Position numbers and translations under genes: made by a program
Notes under the pieces: generated by a model
The model's database searches: none
The model's input: only the letters and a program-made list of their open reading frames with translations
What the model was told of the DNA's origin: nothing
Source of the DNA: Luteibacter sp. Sphag1AF
GTDB lineage: Bacteria > Pseudomonadota > Gammaproteobacteria > Xanthomonadales > Rhodanobacteraceae
Length of the DNA stretch: 64,000 bases
Assembly (NCBI RefSeq): GCF_014192715.1
Contig: NZ_JACHYH010000009.1
Location: 1-64,000, forward strand
Direction of reading: 5' to 3'
Part shown: positions 31,296 through 51,684 of the stretch, in pieces
Position numbering within the stretch: position 1 is the first letter of the stretch
How the letters are laid out: every line of letters begins with the position of its first letter

Positions 31296-31317
31296 CCCGG
31301 GTGAGCGTGTCGATGGC

Positions 31318-31440
31318 CAAAGGTCTCGCCGGGCACACCGCCACCGAAGGTGACGGTTACCGTTCGCGCCATGGGGCACAAGGCCGCCAAGTCTGTTGAC
31401 GCGAACTCCTCAGGGGGAACGAGGATGGCTACTCCCCAAT
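31318..31440 (-). ncRNA. yybP-ykoY manganese riboswitch
   Basis: The minus-strand leader of the exchanger gene carries both conserved internal-loop motifs of this riboswitch class: TTGGGGAGTAGCC (31427-31439) on the 5' side and CCCGGCGAGACCTTTG (31318-31333) on the 3' side, separated by CGCGTCAACA and a variable GC-rich arm. Known members bind Mn2+ between the two loops and switch on manganese exporters (for example mntP and alx leaders). Boundaries are approximate. Confidence 0.85.
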
Positions 31441-31506
31441 GACATCGGGGCGGAGTTTAGCATGTCACGTTCATGTGGGAACCGGCTTGCGGAAGACGAC
31501 GGGAGT

Positions 31507-43751: not shown

Positions 43752-44381
43752 TCAGGCCCGGATCAGTCCGCGCTCTGACGCCATGCGGTACAGGTCCAGT
43801 TCCGAGCCAGCGCCCAGCTTGTTCATCACCGCCGCGCGATGGATATAAATCGTCTTCTGCCCGATGCCGAGCTCCGCTGCCACCTGCTTCGGAGCGCGCC
43901 CTGCCGCCAGCAACAGAAAAACCTCTCGCTCACGCGCGGTAAGCCGATTGACCGGGTCCAGGTCAATGCTGGGCCGCTCTGACCGGCGCTGGCGCAAGTC
44001 AGAACTCAAATACTGCTCGCCGCCCATCACCGAGCGCAGGGCTTCCACCAGCTCTTCAGGCGCCACGCCCTTGGTGACATATCCGCTTGCCCCACGCCGA
44101 AGTGCCTCGGAAACGTAGGGTTCACCGTCGTGCATGCTCAGCACCACGATGCGCATGTCCGGAGCGATGCTGGCCAGATGCTCGATCAATGGCAGGCCGC
44201 TGCCATCAGGCAACGACAAGTCGACCGCGACAAGGTCCGGTCGTTGCTGCGTTACGGCTTCAACGGCCTCGTCGGCATTGCGGCACTCCGCAACGACGTC
44301 GAGGTCCGGCTCCATCTCAATGAGCCGCTTGAAACCTTCACGCACGATGGCGTGATCATCCACGAGTACGATTCTCAGCAT
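43752..44381 (-). CDS. NarL/FixJ-type response regulator
   Basis: 209 residues. Receiver domain with acidic pair DD at 8-9, phosphoacceptor Asp54 (LVAVDLSLPDGSG) and Lys in GYVTKGVAPEEL. The C-terminal LuxR-type HTH reads LTAREREVFLLLAAGRAPKQVAAELGIGQKTIYIHRAAVMNKLGA. It resembles UhpA/UvrY. It is divergent from a UhpB-like histidine kinase over an 86-bp gap, a pair that should form one two-component system. Targets are unknown; a GGA-rich RNA lies next to the kinase gene. Confidence 0.92.
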   Translation of the reverse strand: MLRIVLVDDHAIVREGFKRLIEMEPDLDVVAECRNADEAVEAVTQQRPDLVAVDLSLPDGSGLPLIEHLASIAPDMRIVVLSMHDGEPYVSEALRRGASGYVTKGVAPEELVEALRSVMGGEQYLSSDLRQRRSERPSIDLDPVNRLTAREREVFLLLAAGRAPKQVAAELGIGQKTIYIHRAAVMNKLGAGSELDLYRMASERGLIRA

Positions 44382-44467: not shown

Positions 44468-46087
44468 ATGCGCCCTCACGTCCTTCACCGTTACGCCGGC
44501 CCACTGCTTGGCCTTGGCTATTTCGCCCTCTGGGTAGTCCTCTGGCCTACCGAGCAACCCTACTGGGTGCTTCCGTTTGGCCTGCGCTTCGGCGCGCTGC
44601 TGCTCATGCGCACGCGCGACTGGGGCTGGATTCTGGGCGCGGAAATCGCCGGCAGTGCCGTCTGCGAATGGCGTAGCGGCATGCCTATCGGCGGCGCGGG
44701 ATTCCTTCTGGGCGACGTACCCGAACCCCTGATGGCAGCCATCTGCATCTGGCTGCTTCGCCGCGCGCACCTCCACGCCAGCCTGGGCACGCCTGAAGAC
44801 GTAGCCCGCCTGCTGCTGTCGGCCATGGTCACCGCGACGGTCGCCACCGCAGGCAACGCCGCCATGATGGCGTCGCTGCATCCTGCGGCTCCGGTGGAAA
44901 TGCTTGGCAGCACCTTCGGCAGCGACCTCCTGGGCAATTACCTCGGCGTGCTGCTGGTCGTGCCCGTGCTGGTGCTGATCGCCCGCGAACGCCCCTCGCA
45001 AACCGCCCTGGCCGAGCTGTTGCTGGATGGTCTTCTGGTCATGCTGCCGTCGCTGGCCATTCTGGTGACGCTGTCTGAGTACTCGCCGCAGCCGCAGTTC
45101 GCCCGCGTGCTGTCGCTGGCCCCGGTGCTGTTCTTCGCCTTCCGTCACGGCTGGCGAGGTGCGGGTCTGGCCATGCTGATCACCAGCGTGGGCCTGAACG
45201 TCACGGACGACATGGTGGGGCGAGGCTCACCCACCGCCGCCGCCCACCTCTTTCTGGCCGTGGCCGGCACCGGCACCCTGATGCTGGGGGCGGCCACCGA
45301 TGCCCTGCGTCGCAGCAGCGAGCGGGTGGCCCAGCAGAACGTGCACCTTGCCGCCGTCAACCAGCGCCTGGATCAACTGGCCCGTCAGTTGCGTGACGCC
45401 GCCCGAGGCAATCTTCAGGCCGAAGAAAGCCAGCGCCGGCACATGGCAGCGGAGCTTCACGACGAACTGGGCCAGAACCTCACCGCCATCCAGACCCATA
45501 TCAAGCTGGCACAGGGCCGCCTGGGTCAGGCCGGGCTGGAAGACATCGGCACGTCGATCAACGGCATCCTGGCCCACATGCGCCGCGCCCTGCATCGCAT
45601 GCTGGACAGCCTGCGGCCTTCAGTGCTGGATGAATTCGGCCTGCTTCGCGCGCTGGAAGAAGGCCCCCTGCGCGACATGCTGGCGGCGGCCGGCATCCAC
45701 TATCACACCGATCTGGTAGGCGACCCGCGCCTGCTCGATGACGACACGCTTACCGCCATTTACCGCGTGGTGCAGGAGAGCGCGACCAATGCCGTGCGCC
45801 ACTCCGGTGGCAGCGAGTTCCGGTTGCGCTTGCGTATCGGGCTGCGTGGGGACATTCCGGTCGCCATTCTGGACATTCGGGACAACGGCGTCGGCCTTCC
45901 GCCCAACCCCGCGCCCGTCCGCCACGACGGTGGCGGACGCGGCCTGCAAGGCATGAGCGACCGTATTACCGCGCTGGGCGGCATCTTCCGCGTCCGCCCC
46001 GCAACGCAAGGCCTTCACCTTCGCGTTTTATTGCGCAGCGCTGCACTGGGCGAGCCCTACCTCACAAACGTGAACTTGCGGTCATAG
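44468..46087 (+). CDS. MASE1-domain sensor histidine kinase
   Basis: 539 residues. The first 280 residues hold about eight membrane helices of the MASE1 sensory type (YWVLPFGLRFGALLLMRTRDW, GNYLGVLLVVPVLVLIARERP). A coiled-coil linker leads to a HisKA_3 dimerisation domain with His331 in AAELHDELGQNLTAIQTH, and a HATPase domain (VVQESATNAVRHSGG, ILDIRDNGVGL, GGRGLQGMSDRITALGG). No periplasmic ligand domain is seen, so the signal is probably membrane-borne or from a transported compound. Partner of the divergent NarL-type regulator. Confidence 0.9.
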   Translation: MRPHVLHRYAGPLLGLGYFALWVVLWPTEQPYWVLPFGLRFGALLLMRTRDWGWILGAEIAGSAVCEWRSGMPIGGAGFLLGDVPEPLMAAICIWLLRRAHLHASLGTPEDVARLLLSAMVTATVATAGNAAMMASLHPAAPVEMLGSTFGSDLLGNYLGVLLVVPVLVLIARERPSQTALAELLLDGLLVMLPSLAILVTLSEYSPQPQFARVLSLAPVLFFAFRHGWRGAGLAMLITSVGLNVTDDMVGRGSPTAAAHLFLAVAGTGTLMLGAATDALRRSSERVAQQNVHLAAVNQRLDQLARQLRDAARGNLQAEESQRRHMAAELHDELGQNLTAIQTHIKLAQGRLGQAGLEDIGTSINGILAHMRRALHRMLDSLRPSVLDEFGLLRALEEGPLRDMLAAAGIHYHTDLVGDPRLLDDDTLTAIYRVVQESATNAVRHSGGSEFRLRLRIGLRGDIPVAILDIRDNGVGLPPNPAPVRHDGGGRGLQGMSDRITALGGIFRVRPATQGLHLRVLLRSAALGEPYLTNVNLRS

Positions 46088-46140
46088 GAAATTTTCCGAT
46101 ACCGGGATCGTGAACGCTTCGTTACGATTCTTTCATCGAT

Positions 46141-46337
46141 GTGGGGGAGCCGCCGTCGAGAGACGGCGAGCCCAGGTCGGTCGTGGGGACGACTGACCTG
46201 ATGAGGTGACAGGATGTCAGCCTCGCCGGTGTACTGAGGTGTACCGGAGATTCCGCGAGCAATTCGCGATCTCCGATCCTTAAGGAAAGCCGGATCAGCC
46301 GCTGGTGGACAGGAGTCCATCAGCGGCGTTTTTATTT
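46141..46337 (+). ncRNA. Structured orphan RNA with GGA-containing loops (candidate CsrA/RsmA sponge)
   Basis: The 365-bp gap between the kinase gene and the convergent fur gene holds a chain of stem-loops and no ORF. Stems: 46151-46168 (CGCCGTC-GAGA-GACGGCG), 46173-46200 (12 bp, loop GGGG), 46203-46224 (loop AGGAU inside UGACAGGAUGUCA), 46226-46247 (loop UGAG), 46245-46275, 46275-46296 (loop with AAGGA) and a 13-bp terminator stem 46298-46327 with loop AGGA followed by a U-run. Eight GGA triplets occur, at least three in loops, and ACAGGAUGU is near the CsrA consensus. It matches the layout of RsmZ/CsrB-type RNAs, but I cannot confirm the class. The promoter is not clear. Confidence 0.6.
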
Positions 46338-46452
46338 GGGGCATCGGAAATTCAAGAAAACGCCCCCTGCCCCGGATTCTTCACCCAGGGACCCATCATT
46401 TCTTGCACGAAACACGCGGCAGGCGCTGGGCGCCCACGGGCCGGACTGGCGG

Positions 46453-46866
46453 TTACTTGCGCTTTTTGGGGCGGACGTACAGCACCAGGCTGTGGTCTTC
46501 GATGACATACCCGTGACGGTCGGCGATCTGGTGCTGGAGACGCTCGATCTCCTCGCTGATGAACTCGATCACTTTTCCGCTGTCCACATCGATCATGTGG
46601 TCATGGTGCTTGCCACGGTCCAGTTCATAAACGGCCTGCCCGCCCTCGAAGTTGTGCTTCATCACGATGCCGGCAGCTTCGAACTGGGTCAGGACGCGGT
46701 AAACCGTGGCCAGCCCGATGTCTTCCTGGTTGGCAAGCAGACGCTTGTAGATATCTTCGGCGGTCAGGTGCCTTTCGTCGGCCTCCTCGAAGATCTGCAG
46801 GATCCGCATGCGCGGGTGCGTGACTTTCAGGCCCGCCTTGCGGAGCTCTTTCGTTTCCTGATCCAT
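46453..46866 (-). CDS. fur: Ferric uptake regulator Fur
   Basis: A 137-residue Fe(II)-dependent repressor of iron uptake genes. Winged helix at the N-terminus (LKVTHPRMRILQIFEEADERHLTAEDIYKRLL... ATVYRVLTQFEAAGIV) and the metal-binding dimer domain with GKHHDHMIDVDSGKVIEF. The C-terminal CxxC of some Fur proteins is missing, as in several xanthomonads. Divergent from bamE, the common fur-bamE arrangement. Confidence 0.97.
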   Translation of the reverse strand: MDQETKELRKAGLKVTHPRMRILQIFEEADERHLTAEDIYKRLLANQEDIGLATVYRVLTQFEAAGIVMKHNFEGGQAVYELDRGKHHDHMIDVDSGKVIEFISEEIERLQHQIADRHGYVIEDHSLVLYVRPKKRK

Positions 46867-47411: not shown

Positions 47412-47696
47412 TCAGGCGCCGCCTTTCGCGCGGCGCCTTCTCGCATCCATCGGGTCGATCGTCAGCGGACGGTAGATTTCGACCCGATCCCCCTGCTCCA
47501 CCGGGCGCGCCGCGTCCACTCGCCGGGAAAACACGCCCAGCCGGTCAGGCTGCGCTGACACACCCGCAGGCAAGCCCGACTTACAGGCGAGTTCCGCCGC
47601 CTCACCCACCGTGGTGCCGGCCGGCACGGTCAGCGGGATGACCACCTGCCCTTCCGGGCCGGCATAGATCACTTCAATAGTGAGCGTGTCAGCCAT
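47412..47696 (-). CDS. rnfH: RnfH family ubiquitin-like protein
   Basis: A 94-residue small beta-grasp protein. ADTLTIEVIYAGPEGQVVIPL, TTVGEAAELAC and RRVDAARPVEQGDRVEIYRPLTIDPMDARRRRA are family features. Often encoded beside ratA, as here, with unclear function. The start MADTLTIEV at 47696 is chosen; an ATG six codons upstream lies inside ratA. The gene overlaps the ratA stop by 8 bp. Confidence 0.9.
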   Translation of the reverse strand: MADTLTIEVIYAGPEGQVVIPLTVPAGTTVGEAAELACKSGLPAGVSAQPDRLGVFSRRVDAARPVEQGDRVEIYRPLTIDPMDARRRRAKGGA

Positions 47697-48790: not shown

Positions 48791-49145
<355 letters not shown>

Positions 49146-49151
49146 AATGTG

Positions 49152-49185
49152 AAATCCCAACCCTTATCCGGTTGGGATTTTTTTT
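49152..49185 (+). terminator. Intrinsic terminator of tmRNA
   Basis: AAATCCCAACC and GGTTGGGATTT form an 11-bp stem with a 7-nt loop, followed by eight or more Ts. From 49186 to 49407 I see no gene or element. Confidence 0.9.
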
Positions 49186-49407
49186 GCCTGTTCCCCCTGT
49201 GTTGGCGCGGTTTCCACCTCTTGCCTCTTGAGCACAGCCCTCCGGAAGTCGCCGTTCCAGGCGCGCATTCCGCCGTTTTTCTCTCTCTGTTCTCTGTTGC
49301 CCTCTTGAGCATTCAAGGCCCGAAGTCGTGGATTGACGCGGGTTTGCGGGCCGTCGGTTTGCTTCTTCGCTTGCTCTGGCGGGCGCGACCGAGACAGCGA
49401 AAGACAC

Positions 49408-49428
49408 AAAAAAACCGCCTTGCGGCGG
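49408..49428 (-). terminator. Intrinsic terminator of the recombinase module
   Basis: CCGCC-TTGC-GGCGG (49415-49428) followed on the minus strand by seven Us, 21 bp after the stop of the last gene of the four-gene recombinase module. Confidence 0.8.
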
Positions 49429-49448
49429 CGGGTCGGTCGGCACGGATG

Positions 49449-49928
49449 TCAGCGCGAGCCTGCCACCAGCGCCTCACGTTGCGCCAGCCAGGACGCCGAC
49501 AACTTGCCGCGCAGCAACTGGCTGACACCCACCTCGAGGCGTCCCAAAGCAATGGCGTCGATCAGGTCGGGGGCCAGTTGTGCCAGTCGGCTCATCTTGC
49601 TCGCTTGGCCGAGGTCGATGCCCTCGGCCGCCGCGATCTCGGTCATCGAACTGAACCGTCCTTCGTCCAGCAGGCGCTGCCAGTGGTGCGCGAGGCCGAG
49701 CGCCCGCATCAAGGGGGTGTCCTGCGCCATCTCACGAACCAGTCGTTCGCGGCGGGCCTCGTCCAGGAACTCCTGCGGTGCGTCCAGCGGCGTGATGACC
49801 TGCTTCTTCAAACCCCGGCGCACCAGCGTCCAGGGCAGGAAGGTTTCCATCTGCACGCCGCCAGCAGGCAGCGGCGTCTGATACGTCACTGGGTCGCCCT
49901 TGGCGTGGCCACGATGCTTCTTGCTCAT
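49449..49928 (-). CDS. Small helix-turn-helix-like protein, second of a paralogous pair
   Basis: 159 residues. The N-terminus is basic (MSKKHRGHAKGD); METFLPWTLVRRGLKK follows and then a helical part HHWQRLLDEGRFSSMTEIAAAEGIDLGQASKMSRLAQLAPDLIDAIALGRLEVGVSQLLRG, which looks like a ParB-type or recombinase-accessory HTH. It shares METF-P-RRG, WQ-LLD-G and LAPD-I with its 5' neighbour. Its start overlaps that gene's stop (ATGA). Function unknown; a helper of the serine recombinase or a DNA-binding repressor are guesses. Confidence 0.65.
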   Translation of the reverse strand: MSKKHRGHAKGDPVTYQTPLPAGGVQMETFLPWTLVRRGLKKQVITPLDAPQEFLDEARRERLVREMAQDTPLMRALGLAHHWQRLLDEGRFSSMTEIAAAEGIDLGQASKMSRLAQLAPDLIDAIALGRLEVGVSQLLRGKLSASWLAQREALVAGSR

Positions 49929-50296
49929 ACGTCCTCCTCGAAGGTGGCCATGAGCTGGCGCTGGGCGTGCCAGTCGACCATCAGGCGGTTTCGCTGAAAC
50001 CACATCAGCGTCAGCCGCCGTGGCTGCTTGCCCGCCATGAACTGCTCGATGATGTCTGGGGCCAGCAGGGTCAGGCGCAGCAGTTCGTTGACCACCGAGT
50101 GGTGCAGCTTCTCGGCGCGGGCGATGGCCGACCCGCTCTGCATCGCGCCGGTGTCCAGTAGGTGCTGCCAGTAGAAGGCGCGTGCGACACCGTCGAGCAG
50201 GGTCACGTCGTGGACGCTGCGCTCGTCGGTGGCCACGCGCTGGACGCCTCGGCGTCGGAACGTCAGGGGCACAAAGGTTTCCATCGACTCGTCCAT
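49925..50296 (-). CDS. Small helix-turn-helix-like protein, first of a paralogous pair
   Basis: 123 residues: MDESMETFVPLTFRRRGVQR, then FYWQHLLDTGAMQSGSAIARAEKLHHSVVNELLRLTLLAPDIIEQFMAGKQ, a helical HTH-like core, ending LMWFQRNRLMVDWHAQRQLMATFEEDV. Similar in layout to the next gene (49449-49928). Overlaps both the recombinase stop (ATGA at 50296) and the following start, so the module is translated as a coupled unit. Confidence 0.65.
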   Translation of the reverse strand: MDESMETFVPLTFRRRGVQRVATDERSVHDVTLLDGVARAFYWQHLLDTGAMQSGSAIARAEKLHHSVVNELLRLTLLAPDIIEQFMAGKQPRRLTLMWFQRNRLMVDWHAQRQLMATFEEDV

Positions 50297-51684
50297 CAGG
50301 CTTCGACCTCCAGCAGCTCGGCACCGATGCTGTCCGGGGCGAACTCCGCGATAAGCGCATTCCAACCCACCTCACGCCACTTCACCTTGATCCCCTGCAC
50401 CTCGCCCGCGTGGACGAGGTCGATGCGCTCGATCATCAGATTGGCGATGCGGTGGCGCTCGACCGGGAACAGTTGATCCCACACGTTGTTGAGCCGTCCC
50501 ATCGCCATCACGGTGGTGGCCTCGTCGATCTGGGCCCCGTTGCGTTGGATGTGGCGCACCACCGACGCCACGGTCTCCGGACTGGTCAGCACCGTTCGGA
50601 TCTGGGCCACCACCGCCCCCTCGATCTCCGGCGCGGGCAGGCGCTCGTAGCCCTTGCCCGGCGCGCCGAACCGCGCTTCCGACTTGGACAGGTAGTAGTG
50701 GTACTTGCGCCCGTTCTTGCGCGAGTAGGTCGGGTACATCCGCTCGCCTGAGGGTGCGTACAGCAGGCCGCGCAGCAAGGCGTCGGTGCGCGACCTGATC
50801 TTGGTTTCCACCGACCGGGTGTGACCGTCCTTGGCCAGCACCTCGTGAACTCGGCCCCACAGCCCGGGATCGATGATGGCTTGATGCACGCCCGGGTACC
50901 AACTGCCCTTGTGCGACAACTCCCCGAGGTAGATGCGGTTGCGCAGCAGCTTGTGCAGGTACTTCTTGTCGATGCGTGTGCCCGCCCGCGTCTGGCCGTC
51001 CTGTGTCGTCCACGCCTTGGTCGTGATGCCATCCAGCGTCAGGTTGGCGGCAATCTGGGTGGGCGAGCCGATGGTCAGCATCTCCTCAAAGATGCGCCGC
51101 ACCACCGCCGCCTCCGCGTCGTTGATGACCAGCAGACGGTTCTCGACGTCGAAGCCGAGCGGCGGCACGCCACCCATCCACATGCCTTTGCGCTTGCTGG
51201 CGGCGATCTTGTCGCGGATGCGCTCGCCGGTGACCTCGCGCTCGAATTGGGCGAAGGACAGCAGCACGTTGAGCATCAACCGCCCCATCGAGGTGGTGGT
51301 GTTGAACTGCTGCGTGACTGACACGAACGACACGCCGTGGCGCTCAAACACCTCGACCATCTTGGAGAAGTCGGCAAGGCTGCGCGTCAGGCGGTCAATC
51401 TTGTAGACCACCACGATGTCGATCTGGCCGCGCTCGATGTCGGCCATCAGGCGTTTCAGCCCGGGACGATCCGTGTTGCCGCCGGAGAAGCCGGGGTCGT
51501 CGTAGTCGTCGGCCACCGGAATCCATCCTTCTGCGCGCTGGCTGGCGACGTAGGCGTGGCCAGCCTCCTTCTGCGCGTCGATGGAGTTGAACTCCTGGTC
51601 AAGGCGTTCGTCCGAGGACACCCGGCAGTAGACCGCGCAGCGTTTGCGCGCCTTGGGAGAGGCGATTTGGGTGGCGTCGCTCAT
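50296..51684 (-). CDS. Large serine recombinase (resolvase/invertase N-terminal domain)
   Basis: 462 residues. Resolvase catalytic domain at the N-terminus, nucleophile Ser23 in YCRVSS, the conserved DRLTRSLADF and FSFAQFEREVTGERIRDKI-like stretch, then a recombinase domain (PTQIAANLTLDGITTKAW) and a zinc-free C-terminal part rich in basic residues. It may catalyse integration, excision or inversion of DNA. The start at 51684 overlaps the DUF2924 stop by 4 bp. It lies 1.15 kb past the tmRNA 3' end, but serine recombinases seldom target tmRNA genes, so its own attachment site is unknown. Confidence 0.9.
   Translation of the reverse strand: MSDATQIASPKARKRCAVYCRVSSDERLDQEFNSIDAQKEAGHAYVASQRAEGWIPVADDYDDPGFSGGNTDRPGLKRLMADIERGQIDIVVVYKIDRLTRSLADFSKMVEVFERHGVSFVSVTQQFNTTTSMGRLMLNVLLSFAQFEREVTGERIRDKIAASKRKGMWMGGVPPLGFDVENRLLVINDAEAAVVRRIFEEMLTIGSPTQIAANLTLDGITTKAWTTQDGQTRAGTRIDKKYLHKLLRNRIYLGELSHKGSWYPGVHQAIIDPGLWGRVHEVLAKDGHTRSVETKIRSRTDALLRGLLYAPSGERMYPTYSRKNGRKYHYYLSKSEARFGAPGKGYERLPAPEIEGAVVAQIRTVLTSPETVASVVRHIQRNGAQIDEATTVMAMGRLNNVWDQLFPVERHRIANLMIERIDLVHAGEVQGIKVKWREVGWNALIAEFAPDSIGAELLEVEA

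Follow-up and report, generated by a model that had tools for sequence, protein, structure and literature searches.

The gap between a histidine kinase gene and fur in Luteibacter sp. Sphag1AF very probably encodes a small RNA. The explanation we favour, at a probability of roughly 0.8, is a stand-alone RNA of about 200 nt that would sequester CsrA/RsmA and would probably be driven by an activator. It is best read as a new sequence family of CsrA/RsmA sponge, with no Rfam family match at gathering score, and it is probably controlled by a dedicated UhpA/NarL-type system rather than by a GacA orthologue. The window is the whole stretch of DNA analysed, the first 64,000 nucleotides of contig NZ_JACHYH010000009.1. 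The features discussed are these.

43752-44381, minus strand: NarL/UhpA-type response regulator gene, candidate RNA activator, divergent from the kinase gene
44468-46087, plus strand: histidine kinase gene with MASE1, HisKA_3 and HATPase domains
46083-46101, no strand assigned: promoter palindrome CATAGGAAATTTTCCGATA, putative activator site, overlapping the kinase stop codon
46123-46128, plus strand: conserved -10-like block TACGAT
about 46135-46334, plus strand: small RNA gene of about 200 nt, from covariance model R1, alignments A2/A3 and the terminator
46143-46148, plus strand: 5' leader GGGGGA, on which the homologue set was selected; absent from the list in the initial annotation
46149-46171, plus strand: SL1, covarying conserved hairpin, loop without GGA
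46173-46200, plus strand: SL2, loop GUGGGGAC, putative CsrA site
46203-46224, plus strand: SL3, loop ACAGGAUGU, best putative CsrA site
46226-46247, plus strand: SL4, predicted hairpin, not conserved
46255-46267, plus strand: SL5 GCGAGCAATTCGC, without GGA, kept in most genera but not all
46275-46296, plus strand: SL6, weak predicted hairpin with AAGGA and CGGAUC, poorly conserved
46298-46327, plus strand: SL7, intrinsic terminator, loop ACAGGAGU (AGGA), putative CsrA site
46453-46866, minus strand: fur, convergent neighbour of the RNA

A probable small RNA gene between the kinase gene and fur

The kinase stop (46087) and the end of fur (46453) flank the RNA segment. The initial annotation described this gap as free of open reading frames, and the ORF list of the window indeed holds no plus-strand frame of at least 60 aa inside it. 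We placed the 5' end from the -10-like block and the onset of conservation, and the 3' end from the T run of the terminator; the RNA probably starts about 6 nt upstream of the 46141 first proposed. The intrinsic terminator with an AGGA loop that had been reported is present as SL7 and is followed by the tail GTTTTTATTT, in a scan whose chance expectation is 1.3 such sites per 1.1 kb scanned. Terminator and tail point to transcription of the plus strand.

Segment 46141-46337 has a minimum free energy (MFE) of -107.5 kcal/mol, where shuffles average -73.7 (sd 4.6; z -7.4, 0/200), and the antisense strand of the segment folds equally strongly (z -7.8). Because the antisense scores alike, fold strength alone says little on function and leaves the strand open; the plus strand is fixed by the GGA loops and the T tail, not by the strength of the fold. 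Seven stem-loops with AGGA loops had been noted at first sight. The MFE fold of the window segment does predict seven hairpins, but GGA sits in the loops of SL2, SL3 and SL7 only, and SL4 and SL6 are not conserved. A proposed fit to the CsrA hairpin consensus held up, as UGACAGGAUGUCA at 46207-46219 is close to the SELEX consensus RUACARGGAUGU (PMC7652899). As for the AGGA and AAGGA said to occupy further loops, AGGA is found in the loop of SL7, whereas AAGGA (46282-46286) has its GG paired in the MFE fold and falls in a poorly conserved region.

Covarying stems and constant GGA loops

Our comparison set consisted of 41 non-redundant homologues, with 36 named pairs in four stems. Membership required GTGGGGGAG(C/T)C, GTGGGGAC and a GGAG motif before the T run; because selection used the leader, SL2 and SL7 motifs, counts for these three are conditioned on the motif, and those for SL3 are not. 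Pairing was kept in 95.2% of pair cells across the 41 homologues against 84.4% when shuffled, and in at most 48.8% when partners were slid, a control that favours the stems, which were derived from the same 41 sequences. Changes on both sides occurred in 25 of the 36 pairs, giving 201 such cells over the 41 homologues against 64.1 in shuffles (0/500).

Above these changing stems the loops stay constant. SL3, on which there was no selection, carries GGA in 40 of the 41 homologues. The SL2 loop is GUGGGGAC in 41/41, over 36 different 5' arms, in a set selected on the SL2 motif, and SL7 has GGA in 41/41, likewise in a set selected on its motif. Only two rows with the leader, the SL2 motif and the palindrome came without the SL7 motif, and both end at the border of the locus. 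CAGGA(U/A/C)G, which is the CsrB repeat element (PMC7652899), occurs in 35 of the 41 homologous RNAs. Counted over 88 non-redundant RNAs, a selected set, there are 3.06 GGA hairpin loops per RNA, compared with 0.65 in dinucleotide shuffles and 0.00 in the antisense. Ten divergent RNAs, namely eight located at a fixed distance from the palindrome plus the model matches L099 (also in the 41) and L100, average 2.90 against 0.57 shuffled and 0.10 antisense, and in seven of the ten at least 95% of shuffles fall below the observed value. Conserved GGA loops with covarying stems had been named in advance as support for an RsmA/CsrA sponge, and that idea is well supported by the comparison.

Some RNAs depart from this pattern. 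SL3 reads AAGGU in L019 and AGGGU in L020, both lacking GGA. In genome G028 (L100) GGA is gone from SL3 and from the terminator loop, leaving one GGA loop among five MFE hairpin loops. The g41 genomes (L137, L140, L143) have a rebuilt RNA, in which the SL2 loop is UUGGGG without the A and GGA stands in other loops. As a separate observation, the CAA loop of SL5 is invariant across the genus and in several relatives, and GCGAGCAA(C/T)TCGC is found in 18 of the 41 homologues; this hairpin has no GGA, and a second function is possible.

Invariant loops over changing stems are also expected of seeds, so that the conservation could be that of an sRNA acting by base-pairing, its G-rich loops (GUGGGGAC, ACAGGAG) binding C-rich stretches of mRNAs, with no part for CsrA; the g41 genomes, which retain GGGG and not GGA in SL2, fit this reading. 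However, what the loops have in common across contexts (GGGGA, CAGGAU/A/C, CAGGAG) is GGA, and GGA persists in divergent RNAs with otherwise rebuilt loops, where a seed should keep a longer fixed sequence. We regard base-pairing as decidedly improbable next to sequestration of CsrA.

The covariation also bears on whether the segment codes for protein, for instance through the 95-codon antisense frame at 46057-46344 that exists in the window. A plus-strand frame of at least 30 aa is closed inside the RNA in 21 of the 41 homologues, and some stop-free antisense frame is present in 32 of 41, as is often the case in GC-rich DNA. Yet the RNAs differ in length modulo 3 (17, 16 and 8 of 41 in the three classes), each frame is open in at most 18 of the 41 homologues, and it is paired bases that covary. 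The chance of a coding segment is negligible, and we continue with a probable non-coding CsrA sponge.

A putative palindromic promoter element

The palindrome is centred near -44 from the start placed at 46135, the -10-like block is conserved, and no TTGACA-like -35 box is recognisable upstream of the RNA, a layout that suggests an activator-dependent promoter. The best match to TAGGAAWTTTTCCRAT in each of 118 promoters (113 distinct) was 16/16 in 97, 15 in 17, 14 in three and 13 in one. Its spacing is nearly fixed as well, lying 55-57 bases upstream of the leader GTGGGGGAG and at exactly 56 in 100 of the 118. At up to one mismatch the 17-base palindrome occurs once per genome, at the RNA, in 14 of 15 genomes of the genus and not at all in the incomplete G007; eight genomes of other families yielded one match, with one mismatch. 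Only this longer form is specific, because the 13-base core at up to two mismatches matches widely (35 times in the strain's own genome, where the reversed control gives 13). The GacA box is TGTAAG-N6-CTTACA; none is present near 46135 at up to three mismatches, the nearest match being at 47543.

Three further palindrome-like sites were read individually. One in the same genome (C1:1070595; L033 1499-1515) has a queD-like gene on one side and a LuxR-type regulator gene on the other, and the regulator encoded near the RNA may have a second target there; as a second RNA locus it was rejected, since no such RNA is visible there by eye. Another (C2:330612, same genome) falls within a coding frame, and a third (L146 3095, in G354) precedes one.

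The promoter elements matter for a further reading, in which the segment is just the trailing part of the kinase mRNA, from its 3' UTR or its terminator region, possibly processed and lacking a promoter of its own. In most of the relatives read, as in the window, the RNA directly follows the kinase stop, and Xanthomonas has an example of a 3' UTR product in RsmU (PMC7694677). Here, though, a -10-like block and a palindrome precede the RNA at near-fixed distance. In G315, moreover, the regulator-kinase pair is on contig C22 and the RNA, which shares 87% identity with its counterpart in G334, lies with its palindrome beside fur on C27, where the fetched flanks show no match to the kinase. The RNA is thus not merely a kinase 3' UTR and keeps its palindrome when unlinked. 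A UTR origin seems very unlikely to us, and we retain the reading of a stand-alone sponge RNA.

Distribution of the RNA

A blastn search with 46100-46345 gave matches in 30 of 61 genomes: 22 of the 23 genomes of the genus, the strain's own among them, 8 of 14 other family members and 0 of 24 from other families of the order. The single miss in the genus was G007, which is 80% complete, and the closest relative searched, G016, is 93% identical over the segment. Covariance model R1, built from 30 sequences, matched 64 of 299 genomes of the order, of which 62 are family members at E 1.2e-12 or better. The two matches outside the family (G046 and G090, E about 4e-4) proved on reading to be gene ends with a terminator-like hairpin, as did second matches in G239, G253 and G027. 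By this model the RNA is found only in Rhodanobacteraceae among the 299 genomes. The strain's own genome has no second copy, the next model match after the RNA itself having E 1.5.

A pattern scan of named genomes recovered at least 116 stretches, and the 80 matches listed include Luteibacter, Dyella, Rhodanobacter, Frateuria, Fulvimonas, Oleiagrimonas and Pinirhizobacter. Pattern matches in Streptomyces, Micromonospora and other unrelated genomes (31 rows, with neither palindrome nor terminator motif) were dropped uncounted, and L205 and L261, in which the palindrome is present, were left out of the RNA set as their loci end too early. A contig labelled as a Thiobacillaceae MAG (L206) bears a typical RNA of the same family and is possibly mis-binned.

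The neighbouring regulator and the GacA question

The initial annotation took the regulator across the kinase gene to be of UvrY/GacA type. It does belong to the same broad NarL/LuxR type, but the UvrY/GacA identity is not borne out: on the NCBIfam UvrY/SirA/GacA model (NF007018) it scores 134.6 bits, short of the cut-off of 280. It scores higher on MctR (170.5), UhpA (143.6), MadR (143.2) and NarL (141.1 bits), each time below the respective cut-off. A GacA-like response regulator is encoded elsewhere in the genome (G000:C2:212956-213591; L275 2939-3592, minus strand; 219 bits, cut-off 280), beside what appears by eye to be the end of an RNase E gene.

Taking E 1e-55 or better as the threshold, orthologues of the neighbouring regulator occur in 64 of the 299 genomes of the order, all Rhodanobacteraceae, and in one of 369 genomes of a class-wide sample, the strain's own. 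All 62 genomes with a strong RNA match are among these 64. In the other two (G023, G249) the model misses, but a palindrome and a GGA-rich folding segment, judged by eye, lie at the same place. RNA and regulator orthologue are accordingly both present in 64 and both absent in 12 of the 76 family genomes listed, counted per genome, so that neighbours lost jointly in few events would give the same pattern. The 12 without the regulator have no RNA match, yet all have csrA, which was found in 20 of 20 relatives tested (these 12 and eight with the RNA); the strain itself has one copy of csrA, with an intact frame of 80 codons.

The association extends to lower regulator identity: among nine such kinase-to-fur stretches (L135-L143), eight have a palindrome and then a GGA-rich segment after the kinase, with the palindrome degenerate in L139 and L140; the ninth is the unlinked case of G315. 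Lower-identity paralogues of the regulator (in G313, twice in G330, in G354 and as a second copy in G342) were set aside, their fetched stretches showing no fur match (for G313 only 960 bases were read).

It is possible to keep the CsrA sponge and place it under the GacA-like protein from elsewhere in the genome, leaving the neighbouring regulator unconnected with the RNA. In many Gammaproteobacteria such RNAs are switched on by GacA/UvrY orthologues (PMC7652899), and a GacA-like protein exists in the strain's own genome and in 41 of 41 relatives searched, although two of these score above the model cut-off and 39, like the strain's own, below it. Against this, the protein is present whether or not a genome has the RNA, including relatives from other families in which no RNA was found, while the RNA tracks the neighbouring regulator; nor does a GacA box stand near the promoter. 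We therefore consider control by the GacA-like protein unlikely. Because regulator and RNA occur together, the neighbouring regulator is the best candidate activator.

Relation to known CsrA-binding RNAs

The covariance search proposed at the outset gave no CsrB, CsrC, RsmX, RsmY, RsmZ or RsmV match in the window segment up to E 10, and no Rfam family matched the segment at gathering score. Weak matches (P37 on the other strand, MIR7510, HIV_FS2, ncS01, radC) were judged to be chance. Among 21 loci scanned, the RNA of one relative (L141) gave a sub-threshold RsmV match at the right place and strand, at 19.1 bits (gathering 100, E 0.1). Over the whole window the matches at gathering score were tmRNA, an Mn2+ riboswitch and tRNA only. 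The riboswitch is of the yybP-ykoY type (31299-31449, minus strand, 65.4 bits), and the tmRNA lies at 48791-49144; overlapping unusual frames that follow the tmRNA (window 48791-50375) may belong to an integrated element.

In its features the RNA resembles CsrB/CsrC and RsmX/RsmY/RsmZ/RsmV: it is predicted to be non-coding and to end in an intrinsic terminator, carries several loop GGA including CAGGA(U/A/C)G, and occurs in a genome with csrA and a linked NarL/LuxR-type response regulator. It has fewer GGA sites than CsrB, which has 22 (PMC7652899), and unlike GacA-regulated Rsm RNAs it has a different palindrome in place of a GacA box and a regulator that is not a GacA orthologue. The arrangement recalls BarA-UvrY and GacS-GacA in that a two-component system would activate a Csr RNA through an upstream palindrome, but here a MASE1/HisKA_3 kinase and a UhpA/NarL-like regulator are encoded beside the RNA.

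Within the order, two papers report no CsrB/CsrC homologues (PMC7286519) and no homologues of CsrB to RsmZ (PMC7694677) in Xanthomonas genomes. RsmU, an RsmA-binding sRNA processed from the comEA 3' UTR, is described there from Xanthomonas only (PMC7694677). GGA motifs and the same order of bacteria link it to our RNA, RsmA binding being RsmU's feature, and the published description sets it apart, as the RNA here is flanked by a kinase gene and fur. Altering all four predicted GGA motifs of RsmU did not abolish RsmA binding or function (PMC7694677), and since RsmU tolerates such changes, GGA motifs alone are no proof of a sponge. A single GGA motif is insufficient for sequestration in Pseudomonas (PMC2375449), which weighs against the RNA of G028 but not against the window RNA, as that has several. 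Stems of very high stability may be unfavourable for CsrA binding (PMC7652899), and the stems here, longer than in most SELEX ligands of that study, count against a sponge. A 2017 prediction study notes Gac orthologues in every species that has validated RsmA-regulating RNAs (PMC5568370). For Rhodanobacteraceae, none of the titles and abstract openings listed by a literature search, with most subscription papers outside its reach, concerned such an RNA.

Model and implications

We propose a model where the MASE1 kinase senses a cue and phosphorylates the UhpA/NarL-type regulator encoded across the kinase gene. A dimeric activator, for which this regulator is the best candidate, would then bind the palindrome and switch on the RNA. 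The transcript would present GGA in three hairpin loops (GUGGGGAC, ACAGGAUG and ACAGGAGU) and in the 5' GGGGGA leader, and a single transcript could take up one or a few CsrA dimers, titrating CsrA and freeing target mRNAs. The path from kinase through regulator to RNA is most likely given linkage, joint occurrence and promoter layout, and the titration of CsrA is most likely given the GGA-in-loop constraint. What the computation shows is the RNA gene with its covariation, its GGA-in-loop constraint and its terminator, together with the promoter palindrome and the regulator's joint occurrence; transcription, CsrA binding, activation by the neighbouring regulator, the signal and the physiological output are steps we infer.

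In a broader context, we lean towards the view that the Csr/Rsm switch of Rhodanobacteraceae works through a self-contained cassette, in which a dedicated UhpA/NarL-type regulator and a MASE1 kinase have the promoter of the neighbouring sponge RNA as their main or only DNA target, replacing Gac or working beside it. If true, a sponge with a linked, dedicated two-component system would illustrate a way of rewiring Csr control. In these soil bacteria, a hidden CsrA circuit becomes testable, and one small deletable gene would give access to CsrA regulation in Luteibacter, Dyella or Rhodanobacter.
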